A DNA stretch of 64,000 nucleotides. Source: Hexactinellida sp. DTS-2022 (taxonomy: Eukaryota > Porifera > Hexactinellida). The position numbers and the translations under genes are program-made. Below, in pieces: positions 1 through 51,060 of this stretch. Location: assembly GCA_028753945.1 (NCBI GenBank), contig JAPNXP010000009.1, positions 3,658,001-3,722,000 of the forward strand, in the 5' to 3' direction. Positions within the stretch are counted from its first letter, which is position 1; the number at the start of each line of letters is the position of its first letter. The notes beneath the pieces are model-generated. The model did no database searches. It was not told the DNA's origin and was given only the letters and a program-made list of their open reading frames with translations.

Positions 1-346
1 GGAAGGACGTCCAGCCGTTCCTCAGCCAAAGGCAAACCTCAGACCCATATGTGTTACTCGCTGGGTCCTAAGGGCTCTGGCCATGGACTCTTTCTGTGCC
101 AGTTACTCGAAAATTCTGGATTACATGTCGAGATTGAAGGCGGTACCGTGAATGGTACCTCCTCTAAGAATAAGGACGTTGCTGTGGGCTACGTGAAAAC
201 TCTTCATAAGTTCAAGACATATTTCTGCGCGAGGCTGTTACAACGTCTCTACAATATCGTTGGTCCCGTAAACGCAGAAATTCAAGGTCGTAAATGTTCG
301 GTAGGTGGCGTGCGCGACAAGATCATGAAACTTATGGGCGCGCGCG
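1..346 (+). CDS. hAT-family transposase, 5' part (partial, split by insertion)
   Basis: The frame is open from the first base, so the true start and the expected BED zinc finger lie outside the window. The peptide includes LLQRLYNIVGPVNAEIQG and KIMKLMG and reads like the middle of a ZMYM1-like hAT transposase. It is cut by the RAG1-like transposon at 347. Omitting that element and one GGGCG target copy makes the frame run on into 3491-4336 (LMG followed by VLAAMGNEEQGF), so both parts are one gene. The six bases CGCGCG at 341-346 lie between the apparent target copy (336-340) and the transposon heptamer and do not break the frame. A domesticated host gene is possible; a transposon gene is more likely. 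Confidence 0.75.
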
Positions 347-375
347 CACAGTGGGGCAACATGGCTGAATAAACA
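347..375 (+). repeat. Left terminal signal of RAG1-like transposon
   Basis: Heptamer CACAGTG (347-353), then GGGCAACATGGC (354-365, 12 bp), then TGAATA (366-371), which is also present in the right end. There is no clear ACAAAAACC-like nonamer. Confidence 0.8.
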
Positions 376-1103
376 ATTTTTTTACCATTTTAAATTGTTA
401 AATGATTGCGATATTCGAAATCAGAACTATTGAAAACCTAGGAATCCGAAATTTAATTAATCTAACACCAGTGGTTATGAAATAGTTGGTGGTTGAAAGG
501 ATGGTTTCTATTTTTGTATCTAAAATATTCAACATATTTTTATTATATTAGTGACATTTACGTCATCCTCATATGAAAACTACGAATCATACGTATTGGA
601 ATGTTGTTTGTGAGTGATCTACTATCTACTTGTTGCATTTATAAAAACATTTTGAATTATTCCGTTGAAAATTATAAACTCATCAGAATTCGTAAAGCTT
701 GTTTCACTAATACATTACAAACGGTGACACTACACTTTTAACTGTCGAAACTTATACTGATCACTGCTGATCAAAGAAGTTGGTGATATGTGAAGCCAAA
801 TATTGATATATATTTAAATTTAGTAATAATTTCAGGGTGACCAAAGATGACCAAAATATCCTTTTGGTCTCCAGTTTACGCTAAAATAGTCCCCTAATGC
901 ATTGTAGTAAAAATGTAAATTTATTACCAATCAATATTGTAGATGTAATATTTATTTGAACTTTCTGAGATATCAAACAAGAGATATGGAATGCAATTAA
1001 TTTGTTTCATAGAGATATTAGTGACTTAAAACAATGTAGTAATATTGGTCATAAATAATATAATATGCAAGAAATTTTCAAAAGTCTAATCATTTAATCT
1101 AAA

Positions 1104-3134
1104 ATGAACAATCAAGAAGTAAGAAATATTCTCCAAAAGGCGGAAAATAACTGTCGTAAAGCAACCAGCGAGATGCTGGTCCTATTTGATTTACCAGAAT
1201 CTCAATTTTCAATGATGAATTTGAAATTTCAGGAATTAACCACTATCCGTAGAGAGTTTGTCCGACATAATGATCTGGATAATTGGGAAATTTTGCCTTT
1301 CTATGAACATGGGGCATGTAAACCTTCAGGAAAGATGAGATCTGATGGAACAGATAAACTGACTGATACAATTTCATTTGTTGAACCTCTCTCTAATACA
1401 AACAGGAAATCTATTTCAGCAGTTACTCTGCAAACAATAAGAACACGGCTTATGGTACTACTCGATCATATCACTTTTCTCGCTGAGAGAGAAAATACTG
1501 ACTCCAGAACAATTGCAGCTTTAGCAATCCAGTGTATCAGCAATGATAATTATGACAGAGATGCAGCCAAATTATGTCCCGATGTTGCTGCGAGAACTGC
1601 ACCCAATCAAGTTAACAAGTTCCCATTAGAAAAAGCCTCCTTTATGTTAGATCTCTTGGAAATTGGGAAAAGGAAATACATTGACCTCCGTCGTATCTGC
1701 AAGTCAGAAGATATTCATTTTCCTGGTTACAAGAAGATTGTAGCATACCGAAATGAAATTTGTTCAGCACAGGAAATCTCTGTCTTAAATAATGAACAAG
1801 GAAATTCCATAGGAGTGAATATTCCATACTCTACTTTAGTACATAAAACAACAGAAAGAATAGTACAGTTGATTCCTTCTTGCATAGAATCTCATTACCC
1901 TTTAACTCTCACGATAGCTGATGGTTTCGATGGCTCAGGGAGTCATCGACTTTACAACCAGTTTCCTACAAACCCAAGCCTCTCAACGAAATCTCTCATA
2001 TAATTTGACTTCAAAGCTTTATCCCTAATCGATAAATCTGGTAAGGAAATTTGGTCAAATCCATGCCCTAACTCACCTTTTGTGACGAGGCCAGTTGCAT
2101 TAGTATCTCAAAAAGAAAATTACGAAAATGTCGATTATCTCATGAAAACATTAATTAATCCTAAAACTAGTTTATTAGAATCTAATGGCTTAGAACTACG
2201 TGAAGGGCATGTAAACGTGATTGTAAAGAGGACTCTGTTCGATGGCAAAATGTCCGCTATACTAAGTGGGGCTGGAGGTGCTGTATGTCAACTATGCACA
2301 GCTAATCGCGATCAACTTAAAGATATCGAGTTTGTTAATATGGCTTCCCCATCAATAGGCATGTAAAAGATGCAATTGACATTTTCAGTGATGTCAATCC
2401 GGAAGAATTTCTCAAGCTACCTTCTGAGATGAGATTCGGTTTAACTGTATCCCCACTACACAGTTATCTATGTGTGTTTAGGTGGTTTATGCTTTTAATT
2501 TATCACTTAGATGCTAATCTCAAGAAATGGGCTCCTATATCTCCAAAAATAAAAAGATCTGTGGATAAAAAGCGCACTTTGTTGTTGGAGAAAACAGGAT
2601 TTCATATCGATCTTCTTTCCTGTGATGGAGGGACAAGTACAACTGGGAACATAGCACGATCCTGTTTTCTAAATGGAAAGGAATTCATCAAGTGGGCAAC
2701 TTCTACATTATTGCACGAAGATAAGTCGTCAATATCTCTAATCAGAAGAAATCTCTCTGTTATCTTAAGACTCTATAACAGTAGTTCAAAACTTGACACA
2801 TTTAAACTCAACAGTTTTTGTAAAGAAACTTCTATTCGTGTTAACAACATTCCCATGGGCCAGCATCACGCCATCTATACACAAGTTATTGGCTCATACT
2901 GTGGAACTTGTAGCAGATTATAATAATGGATGTGGAATGAAAATATTGTCAGAGGAATGCATTGAATCTTTAAATAAATACGTTAGAAGGTTCCGAGAGA
3001 AGCTATCCAGAAAATTCACGTTTGAAGATATAACATTAAAGATGTATTCATTCGTATTTTATGTCAAAGTGATCCAGTTCTGGCAAGTTATAGGATGTTC
3101 ACAGAAAAAAACGAAAGAAATATTTGTAAATTAA
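1104..3134 (+). pseudogene. RAG1-like / Transib transposase, three inactivating lesions
   Basis: About 676 codons, close to normal Transib transposase length. It follows the RAG1 core in order: LTLTIADGFDGSGSH (first catalytic Asp at 1929-1931, corresponding to RAG1 D600), then RTLFDGKMSAILSGAGG (second Asp at 2241-2243, like D708) followed by CQLC (like the RAG1 CTLC zinc motif), then SEECIESLNKYVRRFREK (catalytic Glu at 2964-2966, like E962 in RAG1 NESGNKLFRRFR). Lesions are an in-frame TAA at 2001-2003, a frameshift near 2345 and a frameshift near 2855; the protein is otherwise continuous. The first ATG is 1104. The N-terminal RING/zinc region of vertebrate RAG1 is absent, as expected for Transib. 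Inference: recently inactivated. Confidence 0.88.
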
Positions 3135-3451
3135 GTGAAGAAGATTTCCTTGTTAACTCGTTTATATTAGAATAGGGTGTTCATTAAATTGAGGTGAATC
3201 AAATTATCAAAATAGCTTTACATGTACTAGCATCATTATAAACAATGGAAATGATAAATCGAAATAGTAATTAACAATAGGTAGGTACATTATTGTAGTA
3301 ACATCATATATTTTTTTTGCAAATCACGATGACGTGACAACAATTGATAGGGAATCCTAAGAAAAAATCTGAACATACCAAACGATTTCACATAGTATAA
3401 AACCCATATGTAAATAATACATTTGATAGGTCTAACTTTAACCCAAACACC

Positions 3452-3485
3452 TATTCAGCCATTATTGCCATTTTGCCCCACTGTG
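3452..3485 (-). repeat. Right terminal signal of RAG1-like transposon
   Basis: Read on the minus strand: heptamer CACAGTG (3485-3479), GGGCAAAATGGC (12 bp, one mismatch to the left end), an extra AATAATGGC (9 bp, resembling a duplication of the preceding bases), then TGAATA. The spacing from heptamer to TGAATA is 21 bp here and 12 bp on the left. Confidence 0.8.
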
Positions 3486-3490
3486 GGGCG

Positions 3491-4336
3491 TATTGGCCGC
3501 TATGGGTAATGAGGAACAGGGTTTCGCTTTCTACGAGGAGGTCAAGTCACAGGCAATGGACATACGTCTGGAACAGCCAATGAGCAGTCGTACGCAGTGC
3601 CTAGCAAGATGGGTTGTCCGCGGGGCCCGCGGCGAATTGGAAATAGAGCAAGGTGCCATCGACAATGTCCACGCGAAGATATACGCTACCATATTTGAAG
3701 CCGCTGCTGATGGAATCGCCCAAAGGTATTGTAATCAAATATTTAAGAAAGATTTTTTGTACTATATAGTATATATCCAACTTTGTATTGTTTTTTAGGT
3801 ATCCTACTGAGGATCTTAAGCTTCTAGTCCAACTGGAGGAGGTCATCTGTGATTCGACATCTGAGTTCGTCGGTATCATCTGCGAGAGGTACTCTTCCGA
3901 CCTGAATGGTATCACTCAGGAGGTGCTTCGCTCACATATCAAGGGAACTAACGAAGTTATCAAGCCAAAGTTAGACGAACAGACGAAGACCACTTTCACT
4001 ACAGAGGAATGTCGGGTGATTCTCAAGGAAAATGATGTGCTCAAAGCAGCTTGCATTGGCATGGATGTTTTAGTAAGAGAGTATTTTACCGTTCCGGCCA
4101 CCAGCTGTGAGGCAGAGAGGTCGTTTTCCTCTCTGAGGATAATCAAAACATGGCTGAGAACTTCAATGACTCAACGACGGATGAATCACAGTGCGACTTT
4201 GAAGATAAACAGTGATTATGTCGAATTGCTGGATATGCGCGAGGAGGTGAACGAATTCGTCGAGAAGAACAGCATGCGAAAAGTGATGTATGCGAAAACG
4301 CTAAAATTGTGTGAGAACTTAAATTATTTGACTTAA
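3491..4336 (+). CDS. hAT-family transposase, 3' part with C-terminal dimerisation domain
   Basis: Continuation of the gene that begins at 1. Exon 3491-3725, intron 3726-3798 (73 bp; GTATTG donor, pyrimidine-rich acceptor ending TTTTTTAG), exon 3799-4336 ending in TAA. The spliced frame reads GIAQRYPTEDLKLLVQLEE. The C-terminus has the classic hAT dimerisation signature (VPATSCEAERSFSSLRIIK). No stop or frameshift was found in either exon, so the hAT copy was apparently intact before the RAG1-like element landed in it. The 3' end of the hAT element probably lies near 4385, where a CATGAGGGGGCAGGG-type terminus is read on the minus strand; its left end is outside the window. Confidence 0.8.
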
Positions 4337-5272: not shown

Positions 5273-6253
5273 TTATATCCGCTTGTGAAGATATGCTACC
5301 ATCCAACTGTGCCGATTGCCCACGTCTGTCTCTGGGGGAATAGGTTCACTCATCGCCTCCTCGGGATGTAGTATTTCGGGAGAAAGCTCAGGAACTATCT
5401 TACAATCGTTGAGGTGAACCCACGAGTACTTGTTTCCTCTTTTAATCTTTAGGTTAGGGTACTTGGTATCGAATACTAAGTAGGGGCCTATATACTTTGG
5501 AGCTAACCCATCTTCTCGCGTAAAGTTCCTTAGTAAAATGCTCTGGCCCACCAGGACACACGTCGGTTTTTCTACTGTATTCCTGTCGTAGTACTTTTTA
5601 GCTTGGGATTTAGCACTGGCTATATTTTCAGCAGCCTACTTCACGCATTCCTCCTGTTCCCTGGATCTCATCTCTTTGCCACCCGTTTTCTGACAATCCT
5701 CCACGACCTGATCGATCGCCGACCTTATACTTGCTCCGAACATCAGTTCTTGAGGTGTGAACTTTGTACTACTACTCATCAATGAGTTCACATTAAATGC
5801 TACCTCCTGGAGCACACTTGGCCAACTTGTCTTATCCAAGTTACGGTCTACAAGAAAACAGCGCAATGCTTGTTTGACACTCTCTACCGCTCGTTCCGCC
5901 TGCCCATCGCCCTGAGGGTGATAAGCCGATGAACGTTTTTTCTTTATCCCGAAACCTGCGCATATTTCTCGTACTGCTTCTCCATCGACGTTCCTTCCCT
6001 GATCCGTCAAGAGCATGTCCGGAACTCCATACTGATAAATCCACCCATTTAGTAGCGCATTGCATACGGACTCAGCTGTTTGGTCTCGCATAGCGACGAT
6101 TTCAACGAACTTCGAGAACAGATCAATGATTATCAATATATATCGGTATCCTTCCGCGCCCCAAGGTAGGACAGCAATATCTGCTGCAATAGCTCTTCTC
6201 GGTTCTGGGTTATCCAATACGATCGGCTTCAACGGTTCTCTTTTCTTCATCAC
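5273..6253 (-). pseudogene. Gypsy integrase core and C-terminus (frameshifted)
   Basis: The DDE integrase is visible as AADIAVLP (Asp), MLLTDQGRNVDG (Asp) and SAYHPQGDGQAERAVESVK (Glu). The C-terminal segment (5273-5551) has GLAPKYIGPYLVFDTK, a GPY/F-like motif typical of Gypsy integrases, but lies in another frame after a break near 5600. It inserts the cDNA; the 4-bp target duplication fits. Confidence 0.88.
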
Positions 6254-8176
6254 TCTTGTTCTCCAAACACACTATACACACCCTACAGCACTGTTCCACG
6301 TCTTTCCTCATCCCTATCCAATAAAATCGGTCTAGTAAATACGCACACGTTTTCTCTACCCCCGAATGTGTGACTCTGTGTGCTAATTCGGTAACTTCTG
6401 CTCTTTGATTCCGGGAAATTACTAACGCCCTTTTCCGAAAGAGTCTACCTAATTCGTCTATTCGCATACCTTCCTGCTTTTTGAAAGGACCCGACATAAT
6501 CTCTCCTTGTTCTCGTAGTTGCCTGATGGCATTCACGATACTCTGGTCCTTCAGCTGCCCCACCGTTAAGTCCTCACGTAGTAAGCTAACCTCCCGATTT
6601 AACCAATACACATTTCGCTCAAAACTATCTTCGTCAGCCATGACGTCATCTACGTCCCCAGGCACCCGACTCAAATAGTCTGCCGCTCCGTTTTCGTAAC
6701 CCTTCCGATACTGTATTTCGTAATGAATGGGCTCGAATTCAAGAATCCAGCTTGCGTACTTGTTCCTCGGGTCTCTTTGTCGCCTCAGCCACTCCAGAGG
6801 ATGGTGGTCGGTGATTATGACGACCCTACTAGCCGCTTGCAAGTAGACCTTCCATTTCCTTAATGCAGCCACCACTGCGGAGGTCTCCAACTCTCCCGCT
6901 GAGTATTTCCGTTGAGCGTCGTTCAGCTTACTCGAGCAGAACTCTAATATTCTCCTCCTGCCGGTTACATCATCTTGAGAGAGTACTGCCCCCACCGCTA
7001 TACCTGATGCATCGGTTTCTACGTAGAAAGGAACCTTCCAATCCGGGAAAGCCAACTGCTGTGGCTCATTAATTAACTGTGTCCTCAACTTCTGGTAACA
7101 ACACTCACACTCCTTTGTCCAAAGCCACTCCGTCCCCTTGTTTGTCAGCGCGAGTAATGGATCTGCCGTATCTGACACGCTTGGAATATAATCGCGATAC
7201 CAATTCACCAGCCCCATGAACTGGCGCACCTCCTTCTTACTCCGCGGGCGGGGAAATTTTGAAATTTTGGATAAAGTTGTGGGGAGTGGACGTCTACCCT
7301 TACTAGAGACTCGGTGACCCAGGAACTCGACCTCCTCATATCCGAAAGAGCATTTTTCAACTCGCAGTTGAATCCCGGCTCGGTTAAACCGACCTAACGT
7401 TTGGTCCAAATGGTCCAAATGAGCCTCGAAATCGTGCGAGTGCACACATGTATCGTCCACGAAAGCCTGGACGTTTGGGCATCCTCGAGTGCTTGATCCA
7501 CTGTTCTCTGATAAGTCGCCTGCGAATTTGATAAACCGAATGGCATTCGGTTGAATTCAAACTGTCCTCGTGTAGAAACGAACGCATTGAACTCCTTATG
7601 CTCTTCTCTCATTGGGATACACCAATAAGCCGATGCGCCGTCCAGTTTCGAGAATATTGTGCAACCTCCCATTCTATCAAACAAGTCGCGCGGGTCAGGC
7701 ATCGGATAAGCATCCTTCTTGGATATATCGTTCAAATCCCGATAGTCGGCGAATCGCCGCGATCCATCCTTCTTTTTGACCAAAATTACCCGATTGGCCC
7801 AAGGTGAGGACGAGGGACGTATTATCCCATTACATAGCATCTCGTCTATTTGTTTAGAAACTTCTGCTTCCATCTCAGGAGATACACGGAGCGACCGGTG
7901 ACGGATCGGTCGCTCATCTAATAAAGTAATGATATGCTCAGCCGTTCTGATTTCCTGAGGCTTCTTCGGGTTCTCTGCGAAAACCCCTCTCCACTTCTCT
8001 AACACCCGATAAATCGCTTGACGTTGCTTGGAAGACAGTTGCTGGTTTATATCGAATCCAGTCGTGATAGTTGAACTGACGCCCTCGGCCTCTATTCGCA
8101 CTACCTCAGCCCTTGTAACCGCCTGACCTCCGTAGACAGCAGCTAGAGAAGGCACCCAATGCTCCTCCAACTTCAC
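6210..8176 (-). pseudogene. Gypsy reverse transcriptase - RNase H - integrase zinc domain (frameshifted)
   Basis: Reverse transcriptase motifs in order: VKKKDGSRRFADYRDLN, FSKLDGASAYWCIPM and MPFGLSNSQATYQ, followed by the catalytic box FVDDTC (7460 region), which is reached only after a frame change near 7470-7500. RNase H shows FYVETDASGIAVGAVLSQ and ITDHHPLEWL. The integrase HHCC zinc domain is visible as HRVTHSGVEKTC and CCRVCIVC. Another frame change near 6215-6250 precedes the integrase core. Typical Ty3/Gypsy order (RT-RH-INT). Confidence 0.9.
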
Positions 8177-9416
8177 TCGCCAATTCTCCCAATCGAAAGT
8201 AGTATATACAGCGATAGAAACTTCCTACCCAATATTGCGGTCTTTGCGTCTGTGTCGAGTACTTCAATCTCATGGTCTACTAGATGGGAATCTCCGATGT
8301 CTATAGAAACCCGGGCCACACCACATACCACTAGTGGCGTTCGACAAAGCCCGTATACCCGATCCTCCTTCGTTTCGTAGGGAATTTGCATTGCTTGGAT
8401 GGTACGCTTATCCACGACGGAGGGGTCAGCTCCTGTATCAATCATCACATCTACTGGTTGATCGTTCCATTTCATGGCCACTACGACTGCGGTGTCTCTT
8501 ATTCCATCTTGCCTGGAAACTGCTTGAAACACACCCCTATAGGCTTTCGTGTTGGGGAAATTCCGGGTTCCGTGTCCTTTTTCTCCGCACTTTGGGTAGT
8601 ACCGCTCCGAACATTGAGACATGAAATGCTGGTTTGACCCGCAGATAAAACAACGTCCTCTCTGTTGGTACTGGCCACTGGTACGTCTTTCGAAAGGTCT
8701 CGATCTGCCCTGCCCATAAGCCTGACCACGTGACGCGCCTCTAGGCCTACCGCTAGTCGTAATGTATACTGACGGGCATTCACCCTCGTCCTGTGGTATC
8801 TCTCGTTCCGGGGCGGGCTCCACCCTTACTTTCGGCGCTTCATCCCGTTGAAGGACCGCGATCTTTCCTAACTCTCTATACCCGTAGTCCAAAGGTATAT
8901 TCTTCTCTACTAATGCTGTTTTCACTTTGACTATCAGCTCTAAAGGTTCCTTGGTACCTACTTTTCTCGGATATCCAGCCACTCTCGCAACGAAGGTTGT
9001 ATACTCAGGGGGAGCTGAGATACGAAATTGTTGCACGCCATTGACGTGGAGGTCCTTGCTTCACGGGCTAGATCTTGCATGCGGTAGAAAAAGTCATCTA
9101 CACTCTCACCCGCCTGCCAATCCGTTTTTCTTAACTCTCGTAAAGCACGATGGGGGTCTTTGGGAGGGTCGATTTGCTTGATCAAAGTGTCGAATGCTAC
9201 GTCCAGGCTCTCCTCTTCCCTATTTTCCTCAATCACCTCAACTACCAACCTGCGCTCTGCGAAAGTACGGTTTACGTGATTGGGTAACATCTGTAGCGCC
9301 TTTAGAACTCCGCCCTCTGTCGTTCTCAAACCCGCGGTCGCTGCCTGAAACAAGGGCTTCCAATCTTCAATACGCTCATCCTTCTTTAGAATAGGTGCAT
9401 GGATCGATTCTGCCAT
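8173..9416 (-). pseudogene. Gypsy gag - zinc knuckle - protease (frameshifted)
   Basis: ATG at 9416 (MAESIHAPILKKDERIEDW). The capsid-like part contains ESVDDFFYRMQDLAREA. A -1 frame change near 8960 (AGAAAAGTAGG region) is needed to join the rest of gag. A good zinc knuckle CFICGSNQHFMSQC (CX2CX4HX4C) follows, then a degenerate second one, then the retropepsin active site MIDTGADPSVVD. A further frame change near 8180 connects to pol. The nucleocapsid packages RNA and the protease would process the polyprotein. This copy cannot make an uninterrupted product as read. Confidence 0.85.
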
Positions 9417-9439
9417 CCGAGAGAAATCAATTGTACTTA

Positions 9440-9756
9440 TGTGACGAACGAACTCTTACAACTGCAGGGCCGTAGGAACACGGGCGGCAGGTGCGGCATA
9501 GGCCGCACCAATATTTTAGGTGCCCGCATCATAATTCGGGTTATACACTGCGAATCAATTAAGTGACGTCACTTGGCAGCACCAATAATAATTGGCCTAC
9601 GAAGGGCCTGAACTGTATAAGAAGTAAACTTTAATTTCGGTAGAAGTACAATTGAGAATACTAACTAATTACATAATATAAACACACGTTTATTAGGGAG
9701 TGACTATTGCTATTGTGGTTGCATGGAAATGCCTACAAGTTATATAATCCATGACA
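9440..9756 (-). repeat. Gypsy 5' LTR with internal MITE (317 bp)
   Basis: 166 bp of LTR plus a 146-bp MITE and its 5-bp duplication. Only 23 bp separate it from the gag ATG at 9416, and I could not recognise a tRNA primer-binding site there. Confidence 0.92.
9465..9610. mobile_element. 146-bp GC-rich MITE inside the 5' LTR
   Basis: Ends CAGGGCC and CAGGCCC (read inwards), flanked by AACTG on both sides (9460-9464, 9611-9615). The 3' LTR has the uninterrupted site, so insertion followed integration of the Gypsy element. Probably a short-duplication hAT MITE. Confidence 0.85.
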
Positions 9757-12579: not shown

Positions 12580-13858
12580 GTTGATTTTGCTACGGAAATT
12601 TCTTTTAAAATCAATAATGTATCGAGCACGCCGTGAAATACAACTGAAAATCCCAAATTTGCATTCGAATTTTCCACAATTATTAAGGACTGTACAAACT
12701 TTGGGCAATTTAATAAAGCAACTGTAGTAATCGGAGAGCATTGTTCAGTGATTTTTTATTCAGAGAACATGCATGAATATTTATCTGTTGCAACAAATGT
12801 ATTCTTTGATGGCACATTCAAAAAGTGTCCCAAACAATTTTTCCAACTTTGGACACTATTTGTTGAGTTTGGAAGATACGTATTGCCTGCAAAACACTGT
12901 TTGCTAACAAGTAAGAGTGAAGATATTTACACTGCTACTCTATTAAAAATAAAACAACTAGCTCCCCAATTAAGTGCATCTTCCGCTATGGGTGACTGGG
13001 AACCGGCGGGAAGAAATGCAATTAAAACTGCCTATCCCAGTATTTCATTATATGGCTGTTGGTTTCACCATAATCAAGCTATTTGGAAAAAAATAACCAA
13101 ATTAGGGTTAGTAAAGGAATATCATGCTAATGACAGCTTCAAAAACTTCTTGAAATCAATCATGAATTTGCCTTTGCTCCCTTCAGAACATATTGAACAT
13201 ACATTTTATTACCTCACATCCACGTTTGTATCCTTCACTTTAAGTGAAAATATTCAAATTGAAAATTTTTAACGTTATTATAAACACCAATGGTTAACAA
13301 GAATCGGACCTTCCCAATTATCAGTTTTCAAAAGTAAAGTAACTACAACAATGGCGCAGAGAGTTACCATGCAAGGATTAACAAAAATTTCAAATCTAAT
13401 CACCCGAATATATGGGTATTTGTGAAACTCTGAATAATATCATCGTTGATACAGACGCAGAAATCGGTAGACTGAATAATAGTTTGGACATTTCCAGGAG
13501 TCAAAAGAAAGACCAAATTAAGAAAGATGAGCTAAGAGAAATTTGTAGAAAAAATCTTGTAAATGGGACATACACACCAATAGAGTTTATAACTGCTCTT
13601 CACACTACTCTCGACTCTGTGACAAGTCTTAGTGTAGACTTCGACGATAATGATTCAGATTCTGGAGAGTCAGAATACAATGTTTTAATAACAGAATCAA
13701 CATGTTGTATATGTTTACAACCACGTGAGGATACGATTTGCTTTCGTCCTTGTTCGCATGCTAGAGTATGCTCTCGCTGTGACCAGGTTCTTAAAGAAGA
13801 GAACAAACCTTGTCCGATTTGTAGATATATTATTCAAGATAGATTTAAGATATACTAA
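12580..13858 (+). pseudogene. MULE transposase with C-terminal RING finger, copy a
   Basis: MULE DDE signature: ATNVFFDGTFKKCPKQFFQL (first Asp), SAMGDWEPAGRNAIK (second Asp), YGCWFHHNQAIWKKI (C/H motif), then GAESYHAKINKNF (Glu). The C-terminal 40 residues form a C3HC4 RING: CCICLQ, CFRPCSHARVCSRC, CPICRYII. Lesions are a TAA after NIQIENF (about 13271), a frameshift at the GAES block, and a missing T before GTGAAACTC (about 13420). The first two lesion sites (TAA and missing T) also differ from copy b, and copy c shares both. Upstream, 12580-12730 reads as a basic segment ending in a stop. RING domains recruit ubiquitin-conjugating enzymes; the role in a transposase is unknown. Confidence 0.85.
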
Positions 13859-15299: not shown

Positions 15300-16044
15300 T
15301 AGTTGGATTCACGAAGTTCTCACTATGGTTCACAGTGTGATGTGTGTACTGGGGTGAGTGAGCCAAGATATTGTACGTATGCAGCCCACTCATCTGAGTA
15401 TACAATGGAGCCAGGTAGGACGTAATGCTGGATAAGGGGGAACAGAGTTGCAGCAGATCTATCTGGTACACATAACATAACCATTCGGCCTGTATTTCTC
15501 TCGACTATTCCAAAAACCCATTTACCCACTACTAATCTTCCGCGGTTGTATTTACGTTTGCCGAACTTGGATTCATCAATCTCCACGATAATCTCGGGAC
15601 CACCTAAGGATTCAGCATCTTGTAGGATCTCTTCAACACATATATCTCTCATAAAGTTCTTCCAATCAACAACAGTAGCTGGTGCCCACTGCAACGCTTC
15701 TCCATAATAGCGTGTGACTGAATGTCCTCACACCAAAGATACATGAATTGGAGAAGTGAAGTAATTGAGAGTTTGGAAGGATGAAAGGAGGAACCAAAAC
15801 GGATTGTACAGGAACTCTTGCATCCGCGACATTTCCACTTGTAACCATCCTGGGAGTTGGCGTAGGCACCCTCATACATTTCCTCCCCACATTTGCATTG
15901 TATTGCACGAGCTAAAAGGCCATAATCCCGTAACCAGTTAATCGTGTATTGATAGTTTGAGGTTAGAGAATACAAGTAAGGGAGAAGAAAGTCAATTGGG
16001 ATGTCGGGAATGATAAGTGGGATTTGCAGTGGTATGTAATCCAT
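15300..16044 (-). pseudogene. Merlin (IS1016/ISXO2-like) transposase, frameshifted
   Basis: ATG at 16044 (MDYIPLQIPL). A zinc ribbon CKCGEEM...WKCRGCK is followed by a frameshift near 15680, then the DDE core: EIIVEIDESKFGKRKYNRG (Asp), VPDRSAATL, IVYSDEWAAY (Asp). After another frameshift near 15350 comes TVNHSENFVNPTTGVHT (Glu). This order is diagnostic of Merlin, a eukaryotic relative of bacterial IS1016. Terminal inverted repeats were not found. The C-terminus runs into the P fragment. Confidence 0.88.
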
Positions 16045-21244: not shown

Positions 21245-22770
21245 CTTAAATTTATCTTGAATAATATATCTACAAATCGGACAAGGTTTGTTCTCTTCTT
21301 TAAGAACCTGGTCACAGCGAGAGCATACTCTAGCATGCGAACAAGGACGAAAGCAAATCGTATCCTCACGTGGTTGTAAACATATACAACATGTTGATTC
21401 TGTTATTAAAACATTGTATCCTGACTCTCCAGAATCTGAATCATTATCGTCGAAATCTACACTAAGACTTGCCACAGAGTCGAGAGTAGTGTGAAGAGCA
21501 GTTATAAACTCTATTGGTGTGTCATAGGCGTCGACCATGCCGGGGCGGTCGGGGCGTGCCCCGGCATGAGAAAATCATGCCGGCGCGGCCACTGTTCCGC
21601 CCCGGCATAAATTCGATTGGATTCGATTGGAACCCAAAAATTTTGGTTTCGGCTGAACTAAAAATTCTAAATCGATCCATATCATCTCTGCTCTGTTCGA
21701 AGGGTAATTAATTAACATAAATTATTGACAGTTGAAATTCATCCTCGGCAAAAGTTTTTTTAATTCATAGTTCAGCACGAACCTATTTGATTCGGATGAA
21801 CCTATTTAGTTCGCTGAGAACTAAACTAATTAGGTTTGTCCGAACTTAATTCGAACCATTAAAGCCGCCATGTTTATAGCAATGATGCAATGTATTTGTT
21901 GTGTCAGAAAGATCAAAGAAATCGATTTATCGGGAAATTTTCATCAAGATAAACCCAACCTTTGGAAAAAAGTTACAATATGTAAAACAACTTTTCTGAG
22001 ACACGTTGTATACTAGGTGATATTTAAAAAATTTCATAGCTCGCCCCGTCATTATTTTCCGAAAAATGGAAAAGTTCGACGCCACTGTGGTGTGTATGTC
22101 CCATTTACAAGATTTTCTCTACAAATTTCTCTTAGCTCATCTTTCTTTTGACTCCTGGAAATGTCCAAACTATTATTCAGTCTACCGATTTCTGCGTCTG
22201 TATCAACGATGATATTATTCAGAGTTTCACAAAATACCCATATATTCGGGTGATTAGATTTGAAATTTTTGTTAATCTTTGCATGGTAACTCTCTGCGCC
22301 ATTGTTTGTTGTTACTTTACTTTTGAAAACTGATAATTGGGAAGGTCCGATTCTTGTTAGCCATTGGTGTTTATAATAACGTTTAAATTTTTCAATTTGA
22401 ATATTTTCACTTAAAGTGAAGGATACAAACGTGGATGTGAGGTAATAAAATGTATGTTCAATATGTTCTGAAGGGAGCAAAAGCAAATTCATGATTGATT
22501 TCAAGAAGTTTTTGAAGCTGTCATTAGCATGATATTCCTTTACTAACCCTAATTTGGTTATTTTTTCCAAATAGCTTGATTATGGTGAAACCAACAGCCA
22601 TATAATGAAATACTGGGATAGGCAGTTTTAATTGCATTTCTTGCCGCCGGTTCCCAGTCCCCCATAGCGGAAGATGGACTTAATTGGGGAGCTAGTTGTT
22701 TTATTTTTAATAGAGTAGCAGTGTAAATATCTTCACTCTTACTTGTTAGCAAACAGTGAATTGCAGGCAA
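21245..22770 (-). pseudogene. MULE transposase with RING finger, copy b
   Basis: Minus strand: LTSKSEDIYTATLLKIKQLA, AMGDWEPAARNAIK (Asp), YGCWFHHNQAIWKKI, then NNGAESYHAKINKNF (Glu) with an intact frame through WVFCETLNNIIVDTD. Interrupted by the MITE 21523-22087, it resumes as PIEFITALHTTLDSVASL and the RING (CCICLQ, CSHARVCSRC, CPICRYII). The first catalytic Asp block is missing through an internal deletion joining 22770 to sequence near the FLYWCH region. Unlike copies a and c it lacks their shared stop and frameshift. Confidence 0.83.
21523..22087. mobile_element. 565-bp hAT MITE in MULE copy b
   Basis: Ends CATAGGCGTCGA and CAGTGGCGTCGA (inwards), with exact 8-bp duplication TGGTGTGT (21515-21522, 22088-22095). 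The empty site is seen in the other MULE copies. Confidence 0.93.
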
Positions 22771-46044: not shown

Positions 46045-48080
46045 AACGGACACTTAGTTGCGGACATTTTGTCGAACGGACATTTCGTCGAATGGAGATT
46101 TTGTATGATGGACAGTTGGATTAGTAGATATCATTTTTTGCACTGTCTATTTTTTCAATACGCCAAATCAATTAATTAAATTTATTGATAATTAATGAAT
46201 AGCATAACAACAAAAATACAAAAACAAAGTTAAAGTAATAGCAATACGTAGATGGCTAACGAGTGAGTTGAATTGAAGATTATTTTCTAAACTAATTAGT
46301 AATTTGATAATTCATATTTCTTGGCATTAAAAGGTAAATTATGTGCCACTCCTTTAAGATAGGTTATCGTATCTCTAGTAGCATATTCTGAAACAATTGT
46401 TTGCAATCGTTTGCTCCTAGCAATGCTCTCTTTCGAATGATTTGTAGCTTCTCCTGCCTCCCATTTAGTTAGTATTGCTTCTTGAAATTATTGCTCAAGT
46501 TGTAAATAACGCAACATTTTTGTAAAAGTGGGGTGCGCACAAGCAATGCCTGTTTGGAACCCATTTTGCCACCCTTCAACGTAGTTATTTGTTCTAGCCA
46601 TTTGTAAATTTGCACGAGTGTATTGATTCCAAATTCGAATTGGGAATAGAGGTATTCTTCGTGTATGATTCGGGAGCACTCTTCCAATATAGGTTTTCTC
46701 AAAGTAATCAGCAATTTCGATGGCAGAAGATGGAAACTCTAGCATGAGTCTACTGAAACAAGATATAACTTCATTTTCTGGAACAAATGCCAAACTAGCT
46801 AGCATTTTTATTTTAAGTGCGAAATCTTCATCCTCTATATATTGATTGACTAACCCAGCAGATTGTATTTTACGGTAAATATTTTGTGAGAAATTAAAGA
46901 AACATCCAGAGACCACACTCAGGAATGTATTTTCAAAAGCATTTAAAGCGGCCTTCTCAAAATCAATCATTATGCAGAGGGGATTTAGTGCTGGCTTTAA
47001 TTCAAGTAATTTCAACAGGAGTTTTCTGTAGACAAGCTCAGTTTTGTTTGACAGCAAAGCATATATACAAGGAATAGTGATACTATCCTTTTCAGCATGA
47101 ATAGTATAAAGCTGAAAAAATTGTTCAGGTACAACCTTGAAAGTGCCATCTGCAAACCAACTCTGTGATTCTTGCAATACGATAGCATTTTGGGAGTACT
47201 AAATATAAGCATACGATCAGAATCTCCGATTCCAGAATCATATACTAGGAAAGTTTCATCCTTCAGAGTTATCAAGTACCTATCAGGTACGAGTACATCA
47301 GCTGCAGATGCTTGATTGTTAGTACTGTCTTGATCCACACTTTTATGCCTACGTGTTGTTCTTTTGACTGATTCTAAACGAGGTAATGAGGCTCACTCAA
47401 ATTTACAATTCCTTGTGAAAGTATTGTTCGAGTTATCTCTCCCGAGTTATTTGCACGTTCCTTCATTGACTGTTAGTTTTGCAACATTTGTGCGCGCGAA
47501 AGATCAGGGGCATGAGAGTGGCTGGCGAGAATTTCACTTAATTCAGTTGGAATCAATACTGTACCGTTTTTAGTTGTATTTATTCTAGCTTTACATGTGC
47601 TCTCTTTTCGCATACCCAGGAATGCGTACCTGCTGTACTGACTCTATTAAGAGTATATAAAAACTTGGATATGTGCTTTATTCTTTGATTTCGTAGTCTT
47701 TATGAATTCAACATTAAGTGGAGTGGCCATATTTAAATACTGAAAATGATTGTGACAAAAGTATTAATATAATATAATATTGCTATATAAGTCTGTATTT
47801 ATATGTGATGATTTTGAGTAAAGTATACAACAATCAAAGATAAATTTACCCTATTCAATCAAAATAGTTAAATGTAAACAATGTAGTGTGAAATAATGCA
47901 CAATATAAATGAAATCGCCATTCGGCGAACTGTCAAAGTGTGAAATGATACAAGGAATTAATTTTATTAATCATATCTCTATCCGACGAAATGTCCGTCG
48001 ACAAATGTCCGTCGACGAAATGTCCGTTCGACAAAATGTCCGCGACGAAATGTCCGTCGACGAAATGTCCATCGACAAAG
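46045..48080 (-). mobile_element. Second MULE family, with terminal GACGAAATGTCCGT arrays
   Basis: Short arrays of TTTCGTCGAACGGACA-type motifs at 46045-46110, and at least seven GACGAAATGTCCGTC-type units in the opposite sense at 47985-48085, bracket a MULE transposase. Exact ends and target duplication not determined. Unrelated in sequence to the TGCATTTGTCCGAC array but similar in design. Confidence 0.7.
46299..47640 (-). pseudogene. MULE transposase with FLYWCH-like N-terminus, second family
   Basis: Minus strand: STCKARINTTKNGTVLIPTE then SHSHAPD (FLYWCH-type C/H end), a frame change, then WFADGTFKVVPEQFFQLYTI (first Asp), IMIDFEKAALNAFENTF (second Asp), SGCFFNFSQNIYRKI (the usual His of the C/H motif is Asn here), and NNYVEGWQNGFQTG (Glu). 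After a TAA at about 46485 the frame continues as FQEAILTKWEAGEATN to near 46299. No RING domain is present. At least three lesions. The catalytic stretch 46488-47177 is uninterrupted. Confidence 0.85.
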
Positions 48081-48883: not shown

Positions 48884-51060
48884 GGGACGCTGCATTTGTC
48901 CGACAAAAGATACCTGCATTTGTCCGACAGCTCTAGTATGCATTTCTCCGACTTGAGTATGCATTTGTCCGACACATGCATTTGTCCGACAAGATTATGC
49001 ATTTGTCCGACAAGAGTATGAATTTGTACTGCTACATTATTTCTTTCATTTTCAGTTATATAATAATTACGTATTTTTACAACTAAGTCGATATCAATTA
49101 ATTCTCAAGTTGCGAATGATTTTAATTTATGTTTGTATAATAGATCAATGTATTACAATATAAAATTATTAATTATATAAAGAACTAAACAATTATACTT
49201 AAGTTAAATGATAAGTAATCACTGTAGTATTTGAGAAAAGTGAATATAGTTTTCTGTATGGTATCATGATTTGGAAATATGGCCATTATCATAGTTGAGA
49301 ATAAATTCAGGAATTTCTGGAATAAAATTAACTAATTAGTAGAAAACTCAGTTTAGTATATCTTAAATCTATCTTGAATAATATATCTACAAATCGGACA
49401 AGGTTTGTTCTCTTCTTTAAGAACCTGGTCACAGCGAGAGCATACTCTAGCATGCGAACAAGGACGAAAGCAAATCGTATCCTCACGTGGTTGTAAACAT
49501 ATACAACATGTTGATTCTGTTATTAAAACATTGTATTCTGACTCTCCAGAATCTGAATCATTATCGTCGAAGTCTACACTAAGACTTGCCACAGAGTCGA
49601 GAGTAGTGTGAAGAGCAGTTATAAACTCTATTGGTGTGTATGTCCCATTTACAAGATTTTTTCTACAAATTTCTCTTAGCTCATCTTTCTTAATTTGGTC
49701 TTTCTTTTGACTCCTGGAAATGTCCAAACTATTATTCAGTCTACCGATTTCTGCGTCTGTATCAACGATGATATTATTCAGAGTTTCACAAATACCCATA
49801 TATTCGGGTGATTAGATTTGAAATTTTTGTTAATCCTTGCATGGTAACTCTCTGCGCCATTGTTTGTAGTTACTTTACTTTTGAAAACTGATAATTGGGA
49901 AGGTCCGATTCTTGTTAACCATTGGTGTTTATAATAACGTTAAAAATTTTCAATTTGAATATTTTCACTTAAAGTGAAGGATACAAACGTGGATGTGAGG
50001 TAATAAAATGTATGTTCAATATGTTCTGAAGGGAGCAAAGGCAAATTCATGATTGATTTCAAGAAGTTTTTGAAGCTGTCATTAGCATGATATTCCTTTA
50101 CTAACCCTAATTTGGTTATTTTTTTCCAAATAGCTTGATTATGGTGAAACCAACAGCCATATAATGAAATACTGGGATAGGCAGTTTTAATTGCATTTCT
50201 TCCCGCCGGTTCCCAGTCACCCATAGCGGAAGATGCACTTAATTGGGGAGCTAGTTGTTTTATTTTTAATAGAGTAGCAGTGTAAATATCTTCACTCTTA
50301 CTTGTTAGCAAACAGTGTTTTGCAGGCAATACGTATCTTCCAAACTCAACAAATAGTGTCCAAAGTTGGAAAAATTGTTTGGGACACTTTTTGAATGTGC
50401 CATCAAAGAATACATTTGTTGCAACAGATAAATATTCATGCATGTTCTCTGAATAAAAATCACTGAACAATGCTCTCCGATTACTAATTCTCTTAGTCTA
50501 GTAGTAGAATTTTTCCCAGCAATTTAACACTTCGTTCTTAATTTGAACTTTTCCGCATGATAAGTATCTATATCATGATTGTGCGGACATAAAACAGCTA
50601 TTTTATTGGTTAACATATTTAACTTAGCTGTGCTTGGGCATGATTCTCGAAATAAAATGCATTTGAGGTAAGCTACCGAATTACGCTCTTTTGATAGTGT
50701 GTATTTGTGACCGTCTGTTGTTGTAAAAACATTTCCACGCTTATTCTTGTACTCGCTTCTTGATTATTCCATCGTTAACAATAAATTGAAGAATTTAGGT
50801 AAAGTTCAAAAGTGTTAGTGTGTATATATACATATATGTACACCAATGTGTAACCATGCGTACTTGTAGTAAGCATAATACATTTCCTTGTTATGTTCTG
50901 ACACATTACATCGTGATTTTGGAAAACAAACCTTACAATAGAAGTATACTTAGTAAAACAAATGCATGTGTCGGACAAATGCATACTCAAGTCGGACAAA
51001 TGCATACTAGAGCTGTCGGACAAATGCAGGTATCTTTTGTCGGACAAATGCATGCGCCCC
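48884..51060 (-). mobile_element. MULE-RING transposon, copy c (most complete)
   Basis: Left GGGACGCTGCATTTG with six motif units (48893-49020), right end GCATGCGCCCC with four units (50962-51060). Contains FLYWCH, DDE and RING parts. No convincing target duplication. Not interrupted by other elements. Confidence 0.88.
49353..50760 (-). pseudogene. FLYWCH - MULE transposase - RING protein, copy c
   Basis: From the N-terminus (high coordinates): FLYWCH-type zinc finger at about 50730-50510 (GNVFTTTDGHKYTL, YLKCILFRESCP, CPHNHDIDTYH), a deletion relative to copy a near 50480, then 50470-49940 with ATNVFFDGTFKKCPKQFF (Asp), MGDWEPAGRNAI (Asp), YGCWFHHNQAIWKK; after the stop at about 49940, TTNNGAESYHAKINKNF (Glu); after a one-base frameshift at about 49795, 49799-49353 with an acidic linker (DFDDNDSDSGES) and the RING (CCICLQPRED, CSHARVCSRC, CPICRYII). 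The stop and frameshift are identical to those of copy a. Confidence 0.87.

Follow-up and report, generated by a model that had tools for sequence, protein, structure and literature searches.

What kind of mobile element lies at positions 347-3485 of a 64,000-nucleotide stretch of DNA from the glass sponge Hexactinellida sp. DTS-2022 (contig JAPNXP010000009.1, positions 3,658,001 to 3,722,000; the whole stretch is called the window below), and what can its two ends tell us about the short-long signal pairing of antibody-gene recombination? Positions 347-3485 formed one element of 3139 bp, full-length but broken. It is very probably the fossil of a Transib transposon, a cut-and-paste element, that had jumped into a transposase gene of the hAT type. 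The two ends of the element were unequal: a TGAATA block was located 12 bp past the left heptamer and 21 bp past the right one, an arrangement common to the sister copies. Most of the Transib families tested in the same genome shared this 9-bp spacing difference, though most described Transib families have symmetric ends (PMC8289069). Taken alone, the window element is an ordinary fossil; its setting in an early animal lineage, with many families, young insertions, consensus heptamers and, in most families tested, 12/21-type spacing, is more than that.

The genome searched comprised 112.4 Mb in 18 contigs (C-numbers denote contigs and L-numbers loci; the window is C18:3658001-3722000). The 13-mer CACAGTGGGGCAA opened each end of the element and occurred 19 times in the genome, against no occurrence of the reversed control, and the first and last 19 bases formed inverted repeats (95%). 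An earlier note on this DNA had proposed a Transib/RAG1-like element with CACAGTG at each end, and both heptamers were borne out. It had also reported that GGGCG flanks the element; the two copies were present, but the left one was set off from the element by CGCGCG. When the flanks were joined, the hAT-type reading frame ran open over the insertion site. Four further loci covered the joined-flank junction at 85-94% identity, and in all three of those fetched ATGGGCGTATTGG was found, with a single GGGCG and no CGCGCG; the target duplication is taken as GGGCG because these empty sites hold ATGGGCGTATTGG once. The features of the ends and of the insertion site were as follows:

1-340, + strand: 5' part of the target, the hAT-type transposase gene that the element interrupts
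336-340, no strand: target duplication GGGCG, left copy
341-346, no strand: extra CGCGCG at the junction of target duplication and element
347-353, + strand: left heptamer CACAGTG, common to the sister copies
354-365, + strand: left spacer, 12 bp
366-374, + strand: left inner block (TGAATAAAC), matching the right block at shift +9
3416-3423, - strand: right subterminal motif AATGTATT
3449-3457, - strand: right inner block (TGAATAGGT)
3458-3478, - strand: right spacer, 21 bp
3479-3485, - strand: right heptamer CACAGTG
3486-3490, no strand: target duplication GGGCG, right copy
3491-4336, + strand: 3' part of the interrupted hAT-type gene, with Dimer_Tnp_hAT (PF05699) in 3770-4333 (E value 1e-5)

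In two members of the family (window 341-346 and the right junction of L009), extra CG repeats lay between the target duplication and the terminus of the element; they are either an insertion by-product or slippage.

The offset of the inner blocks was quantified across families by a shift test, in which ends were picked irrespective of the block (17 families, one near-copy dropped). Mean identity between left and right ends was 0.65 at shift +9, with 0.35 for the best of 30 other shifts and a maximum of 0.40 in 1000 shuffles of the right ends; the value at +9 was still 0.60 once four more related families were removed. The best shift was 9 in 12 of the 17 families (one tied) and 10 in two (families e and f). 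Agreement of left with right blocks was 0.65 inside families and 0.42 across them; the two blocks therefore change together. The short spacer was upstream of the gene wherever the offset was seen. In 13 of 18 families the motif AATGTATT lay about 62 bp from the right terminus, but none of the 18 had it within 70 bp of the left one; it is possibly a further, putative binding site.

Several points weigh against a general 9-bp rule. The 14-base stretch used in the shift test was picked only after the pattern had been noticed; the best shift was neither +9 nor +10 in three of the 17 families (g, h and p, with +9 ranking second in p); family i, best at +9 (9/14), also matched at 7/14 positions at equal spacing; and six of the 21 sampled families gave one end only, and were left out of the count. 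The recombination signal sequence (RSS) of V(D)J (variable, diversity, joining) recombination has the consensus heptamer CACAGTG and nonamer ACAAAAACC; this nonamer was not conserved at the right ends, and the left ends showed an A-rich run only.

The element contained one visible gene and no second, RAG2-like gene. Its features were:

1104-3175, + strand: broken Transib transposase gene, disrupted by a stop codon (2001), three frameshifts (near 2338, 2830 and 3028) and an in-frame deletion of 33 bp (near 2444)
1395-1496, + strand: region aligning with the RAG1 stretch that contains the nonamer-binding domain
1929-1931, + strand: first catalytic Asp (HzTransib D126)
2241-2243, + strand: second catalytic Asp (HzTransib D225)
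2286-2297, + strand: CxxC zinc motif (CQLC)
2880-2897, + strand: HxxxxH zinc motif (HKLLAH)
2964-2966, + strand: catalytic Glu (HzTransib E436)

Region 1395-1496 was placed using what we take to be the limits of the nonamer-binding domain in RAG1. The catalytic triad named in the earlier note (Asp 1929, Asp 2241, Glu 2964) aligned with D126, D225 and E436 of HzTransib, residues being counted along the printed alignments and the published numbering taken from PMC6941560. The CxxC motif that it had named was present and was accompanied by HxxxxH, both sitting between Asp 2241 and Glu 2964, the Transib-type arrangement. Pieces of the window gene matched the HzTransib structure by sequence with E values of 3e-5, 0.036 and 2e-4, and the natural 567-aa frame of a sister copy with 7e-10; the first gene piece alone had no match to that structure by sequence. 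For one relative the fold was shown as well. The state of the gene had been described less exactly. Three lesions had been counted in a gene of ~676 codons ending at 3134; five were found, the deletion near 2444 and the frameshift near 3028 being additional, and the gene ends at ~3175, at ~690 codons. The stop at 2001 stayed in place, and the frameshifts put near 2345 and 2855 were shifted to near 2338 and 2830. It had been proposed to look for copies free of the stop and the frameshifts: seven sisters were compared, six of them covering each place, and none had these lesions, all five being unique to the window copy. The overall interpretation was supported, the identity being right and the state mostly so.

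Eight sister copies were detected at 91-97% identity, two of them full-length (on C13 and C14) and six partial or interrupted. Over aligned columns seven sisters were 94.9-97.4% identical to the window copy, and the closest sister pairs reached 98-99%. The C14 copies had perfect target duplications (GTCTC and TAGTG), and in the C13 copy the right junction held an additional CG. All the listed frames of the family were broken, the longest being 567 aa.

Searching the genome with two protein pieces gave at least 131 and at least 150 Transib matches (one copy may give several). Uninterrupted frames of at least 700 aa were present at no fewer than 13 loci out of the 131 matches, and 7 of these 13 had a perfect 5-bp duplication together with CACAGTG at both ends. 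The relatives in this genome include young copies with uninterrupted genes. Ends were sampled in 21 further families and both were located in 15; adding the window family, a C5 relative 70% identical to it, and the L011 family gave the set of 18 families. The C5 relative was counted as one element from two loci because their CATTA duplications agree. Exact CACAGTG was found at 35 of the 36 ends and a perfect 5-bp duplication in 14 of the 18 families (the others being j, 4 of 5 bases; q, 4 bp; n, 6 bp; and the window, displaced), counts that hold partly by construction, because the search pattern for ends was CACNNTG and 13 pairs were selected for agreement in at least 4 of the 5 duplicated bases. 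The G+C content of 18 duplications from families and sister copies was 49% (44/90 bases), compared with 35% in the window as a whole (one-sided binomial, 0.006), a mild bias that falls short of strong GC-richness.

Three features of this population were recorded separately. The C5 relative (L049/L034, C5 about 2304737-2316800) probably contains a large nested insertion, because it appears to span ~12 kb between matching CATTA duplications. L035, L036 and L037, Transib fragments on three different contigs (C18, C12 and C11), had the same score and the same 15 flanking bases; they probably reflect the duplication of larger segments and not three separate insertions. Similar-looking frames ran antisense to the transposase in L011 (157 aa) and L013 (152 aa), both on the minus strand of two copies of one family.

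Do these elements belong to Transib, or are they RAGL transposons (RAG1L + RAG2L) that have lost the RAG2-like gene? The DDE triad, the CAC-type heptamers with 5-bp duplication, the CxxC/HxxxxH motifs and the single gene are those of Transib. The class of the protein, left to profile searches by the earlier note, came out accordingly: a profile of related proteins gave 156 bits to HzTransib and 70 to amphioxus RAG1L, HzTransib also scoring above RAG1. In a tree of RAG1L, RAG1, HzTransib and the glass-sponge proteins, the first two were on one side, and HzTransib with all glass-sponge proteins on the other (100/99; midpoint root, long branches and partial rows). A RAGL origin would account for the CxxC-to-SPLH segment, which the relatives keep and which is present in RAG1L and missing from HzTransib, for the RAG1L-like zinc tail (CTT1) in L053 and in 13 of 18 long relatives, and for the unequal ends, which resemble those of an algal RAGL element (PMC9435367). 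With the protein nearer HzTransib than RAG1L and no RAG2-like gene in the 3139 bp, we regard it as very unlikely. A search of the genome for RAG2 gave no match, but the controls of this search matched nowhere either. It is scarcely credible that these are domesticated host genes: several loci do have long open frames, but the perfect target duplications, the sister copies at unrelated sites, the empty sites and the broken frames of the window family are those of a transposon. The 9-bp offset could also be a functionless inherited relic, the right end of an ancestor having gained a short insertion that its descendants kept. A single origin fits the constant upstream position of the short end in families that show the offset, and the right spacer of the window family resembles an internal duplication (AATGGC-AAT-AATGGC). 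The offset has, however, been kept by families whose proteins share only 30-40% identity with that of the window and whose left ends are ~38% alike (median), and the co-variation of left and right blocks within families is unexpected of a relic, an explanation that we therefore consider improbable.

Within Transib, the unequal ends, the RAG1-like segment that HzTransib lacks, and the zinc tail in most long relatives suggest that the glass-sponge elements are “Subgroup I” Transibs sensu Tao 2022. This GFPINR segment aligned with RAG1L and was seen in the natural frame of L025, a copy of the window family; in the model of L053, helices were placed at 395-430. On our own reading of Tao 2022, and judged by sequence only, this segment may be the equivalent of RAG1 alpha11-alpha12. 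In the window family, then, the 12/21 asymmetry (window and sisters) and the putative alpha11-alpha12 region were found, but not CTT1. Two observations count against Subgroup I: the zinc tail was absent from the window copy, the five sisters reaching the gene end, L051 and L052; and overall similarity was highest to HzTransib, which Tao 2022 placed in Subgroup II, the CTT2 group (PMC9435367). No relative was detected in scans of bacterial/archaeal and viral contigs. Compared with V(D)J 12/23 signals, the heptamer and the 12-bp spacer were present, but the long spacer was 21 bp and ACAAAAACC was not conserved. The elements are new members of an already known kind of transposon, with an unusually informative end structure.

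Cutting beside CACAGTG with 5-bp staggered insertion is established for HzTransib and RAG (PMC6941560). In intact relatives, the RAG1-like transposase would contact each end twice: the heptamer through its catalytic part, and the inner block through its N-terminal domain, which aligned with the part of RAG1 that binds the nonamer; the region corresponding to 1395-1496, on a hinge able to serve both spacings, is the natural candidate reader of this block. Each element would pair a short end (~12 bp, upstream) with a long one (~21 bp, downstream), as 12 and 23 signals are paired in V(D)J recombination, and cleavage next to CACAGTG would be followed by insertion with a 5-bp duplication. That the transposase prefers such a short-long pair is, judging from the sequences, a proposition for which we see the balance as about even. 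A broader proposal is that a large, recently active RAG1-like radiation in one early-branching animal lineage follows a ~12/21 rule, the block being read 9 bp apart by a nonamer-binding-like domain, and that this 12/21 coupling is ancestral to the 12/23 coupling of V(D)J recombination and older than the recruitment of RAG2. The ancestral rule is suggested because the algal RAGL element shows the 9-bp step too; we put it forward tentatively and lean somewhat against it.

The homologues with a named organism (10 of 71 and 11 of 67) were all from a glass sponge, Oopsacas minuta, at 39-61% identity, probably a different species from the host. A dehydrogenase gene in the window had five relatives at 66-93%, followed, among matches with a named organism, by demosponge and other animal sequences at 50% or less. 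These comparisons point to a glass-sponge host. Neither the O. minuta nor the Aphrocallistes vastus genome paper used the word Transib in its main text, and searches among open-licence papers gave no title on Transib in sponges among those listed. One 112-Mb genome with at least 13 open-frame Transib loci (700 aa or more) contrasts with the one or at most few copies of autonomous Transibs typically described per animal genome (PMC4411706). These families provide a natural sequence set for asking how the short-long pairing of antibody-gene recombination arose, and whether RAG2 was needed for it.

Other mobile elements were also present in the window. A broken long terminal repeat (LTR)-type retroelement occupied 5636-9455 (-), with reverse transcriptase, RNase H and integrase zinc domains in overlapping frames. 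Two element copies, near-identical by eye, were located at 12637-13858 (+) and 49353-50497 (-); in the first, the one in which domains were tested, a MULE transposase domain was detected and, after it, a frame whose C-terminus carries a RING finger. A related piece was found at 22052-22579 and a further MULE domain at 46488-47198. An ISXO2/IS1595-like DDE transposase domain was found at 15323-16044 (-), in an animal genome.

Among known systems, HzTransib (Helicoverpa zea; PDB 6pqn, 6pqx) was 20-25% identical to the glass-sponge proteins in aligned structures, lacks a stretch of ~35 residues that they retain after CxxC, and has ends described as symmetric (PMC8289069), whereas the glass-sponge ends are unequal. 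Subgroup I Transibs (ctenophore, Hydra and bacterial; PMC9435367) likewise have unequal ends and a segment at the place of RAG1 alpha11-alpha12, and their RAG1L-like zinc tail is shared by the 13 long glass-sponge relatives but not by the window family; their host group is different, the words sponge and Porifera being absent from the main text of PMC9435367. AanRAGL, from the alga Aureococcus (PMC9435367), also has two conserved end elements, with spacers 9 bp apart (4/13), and 5-bp duplications but, unlike the glass-sponge elements, it carries RAG1L and RAG2L and has other end sequences. The asymmetric dipteran Transibs (Drosophila Transib5; Anopheles Transib2, N1, N2 and N3; PMC8355894) combine short and long spacers too, given as 12 or 23 bp to within 1 bp and with nonamer-like sequences, whereas the spacers here are ~12/21 and the block is different. 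V(D)J signals and RAG1 share with the glass-sponge elements CACAGTG, a 12-bp spacer at one end, a homologous recombinase core and the alignment of the nonamer-binding part; they differ in the long spacer (23 instead of 21 bp), in the nonamer consensus and in RAG2, of which the element has no counterpart. RAG1 is a domesticated recombinase, whereas the glass-sponge element is a transposon.
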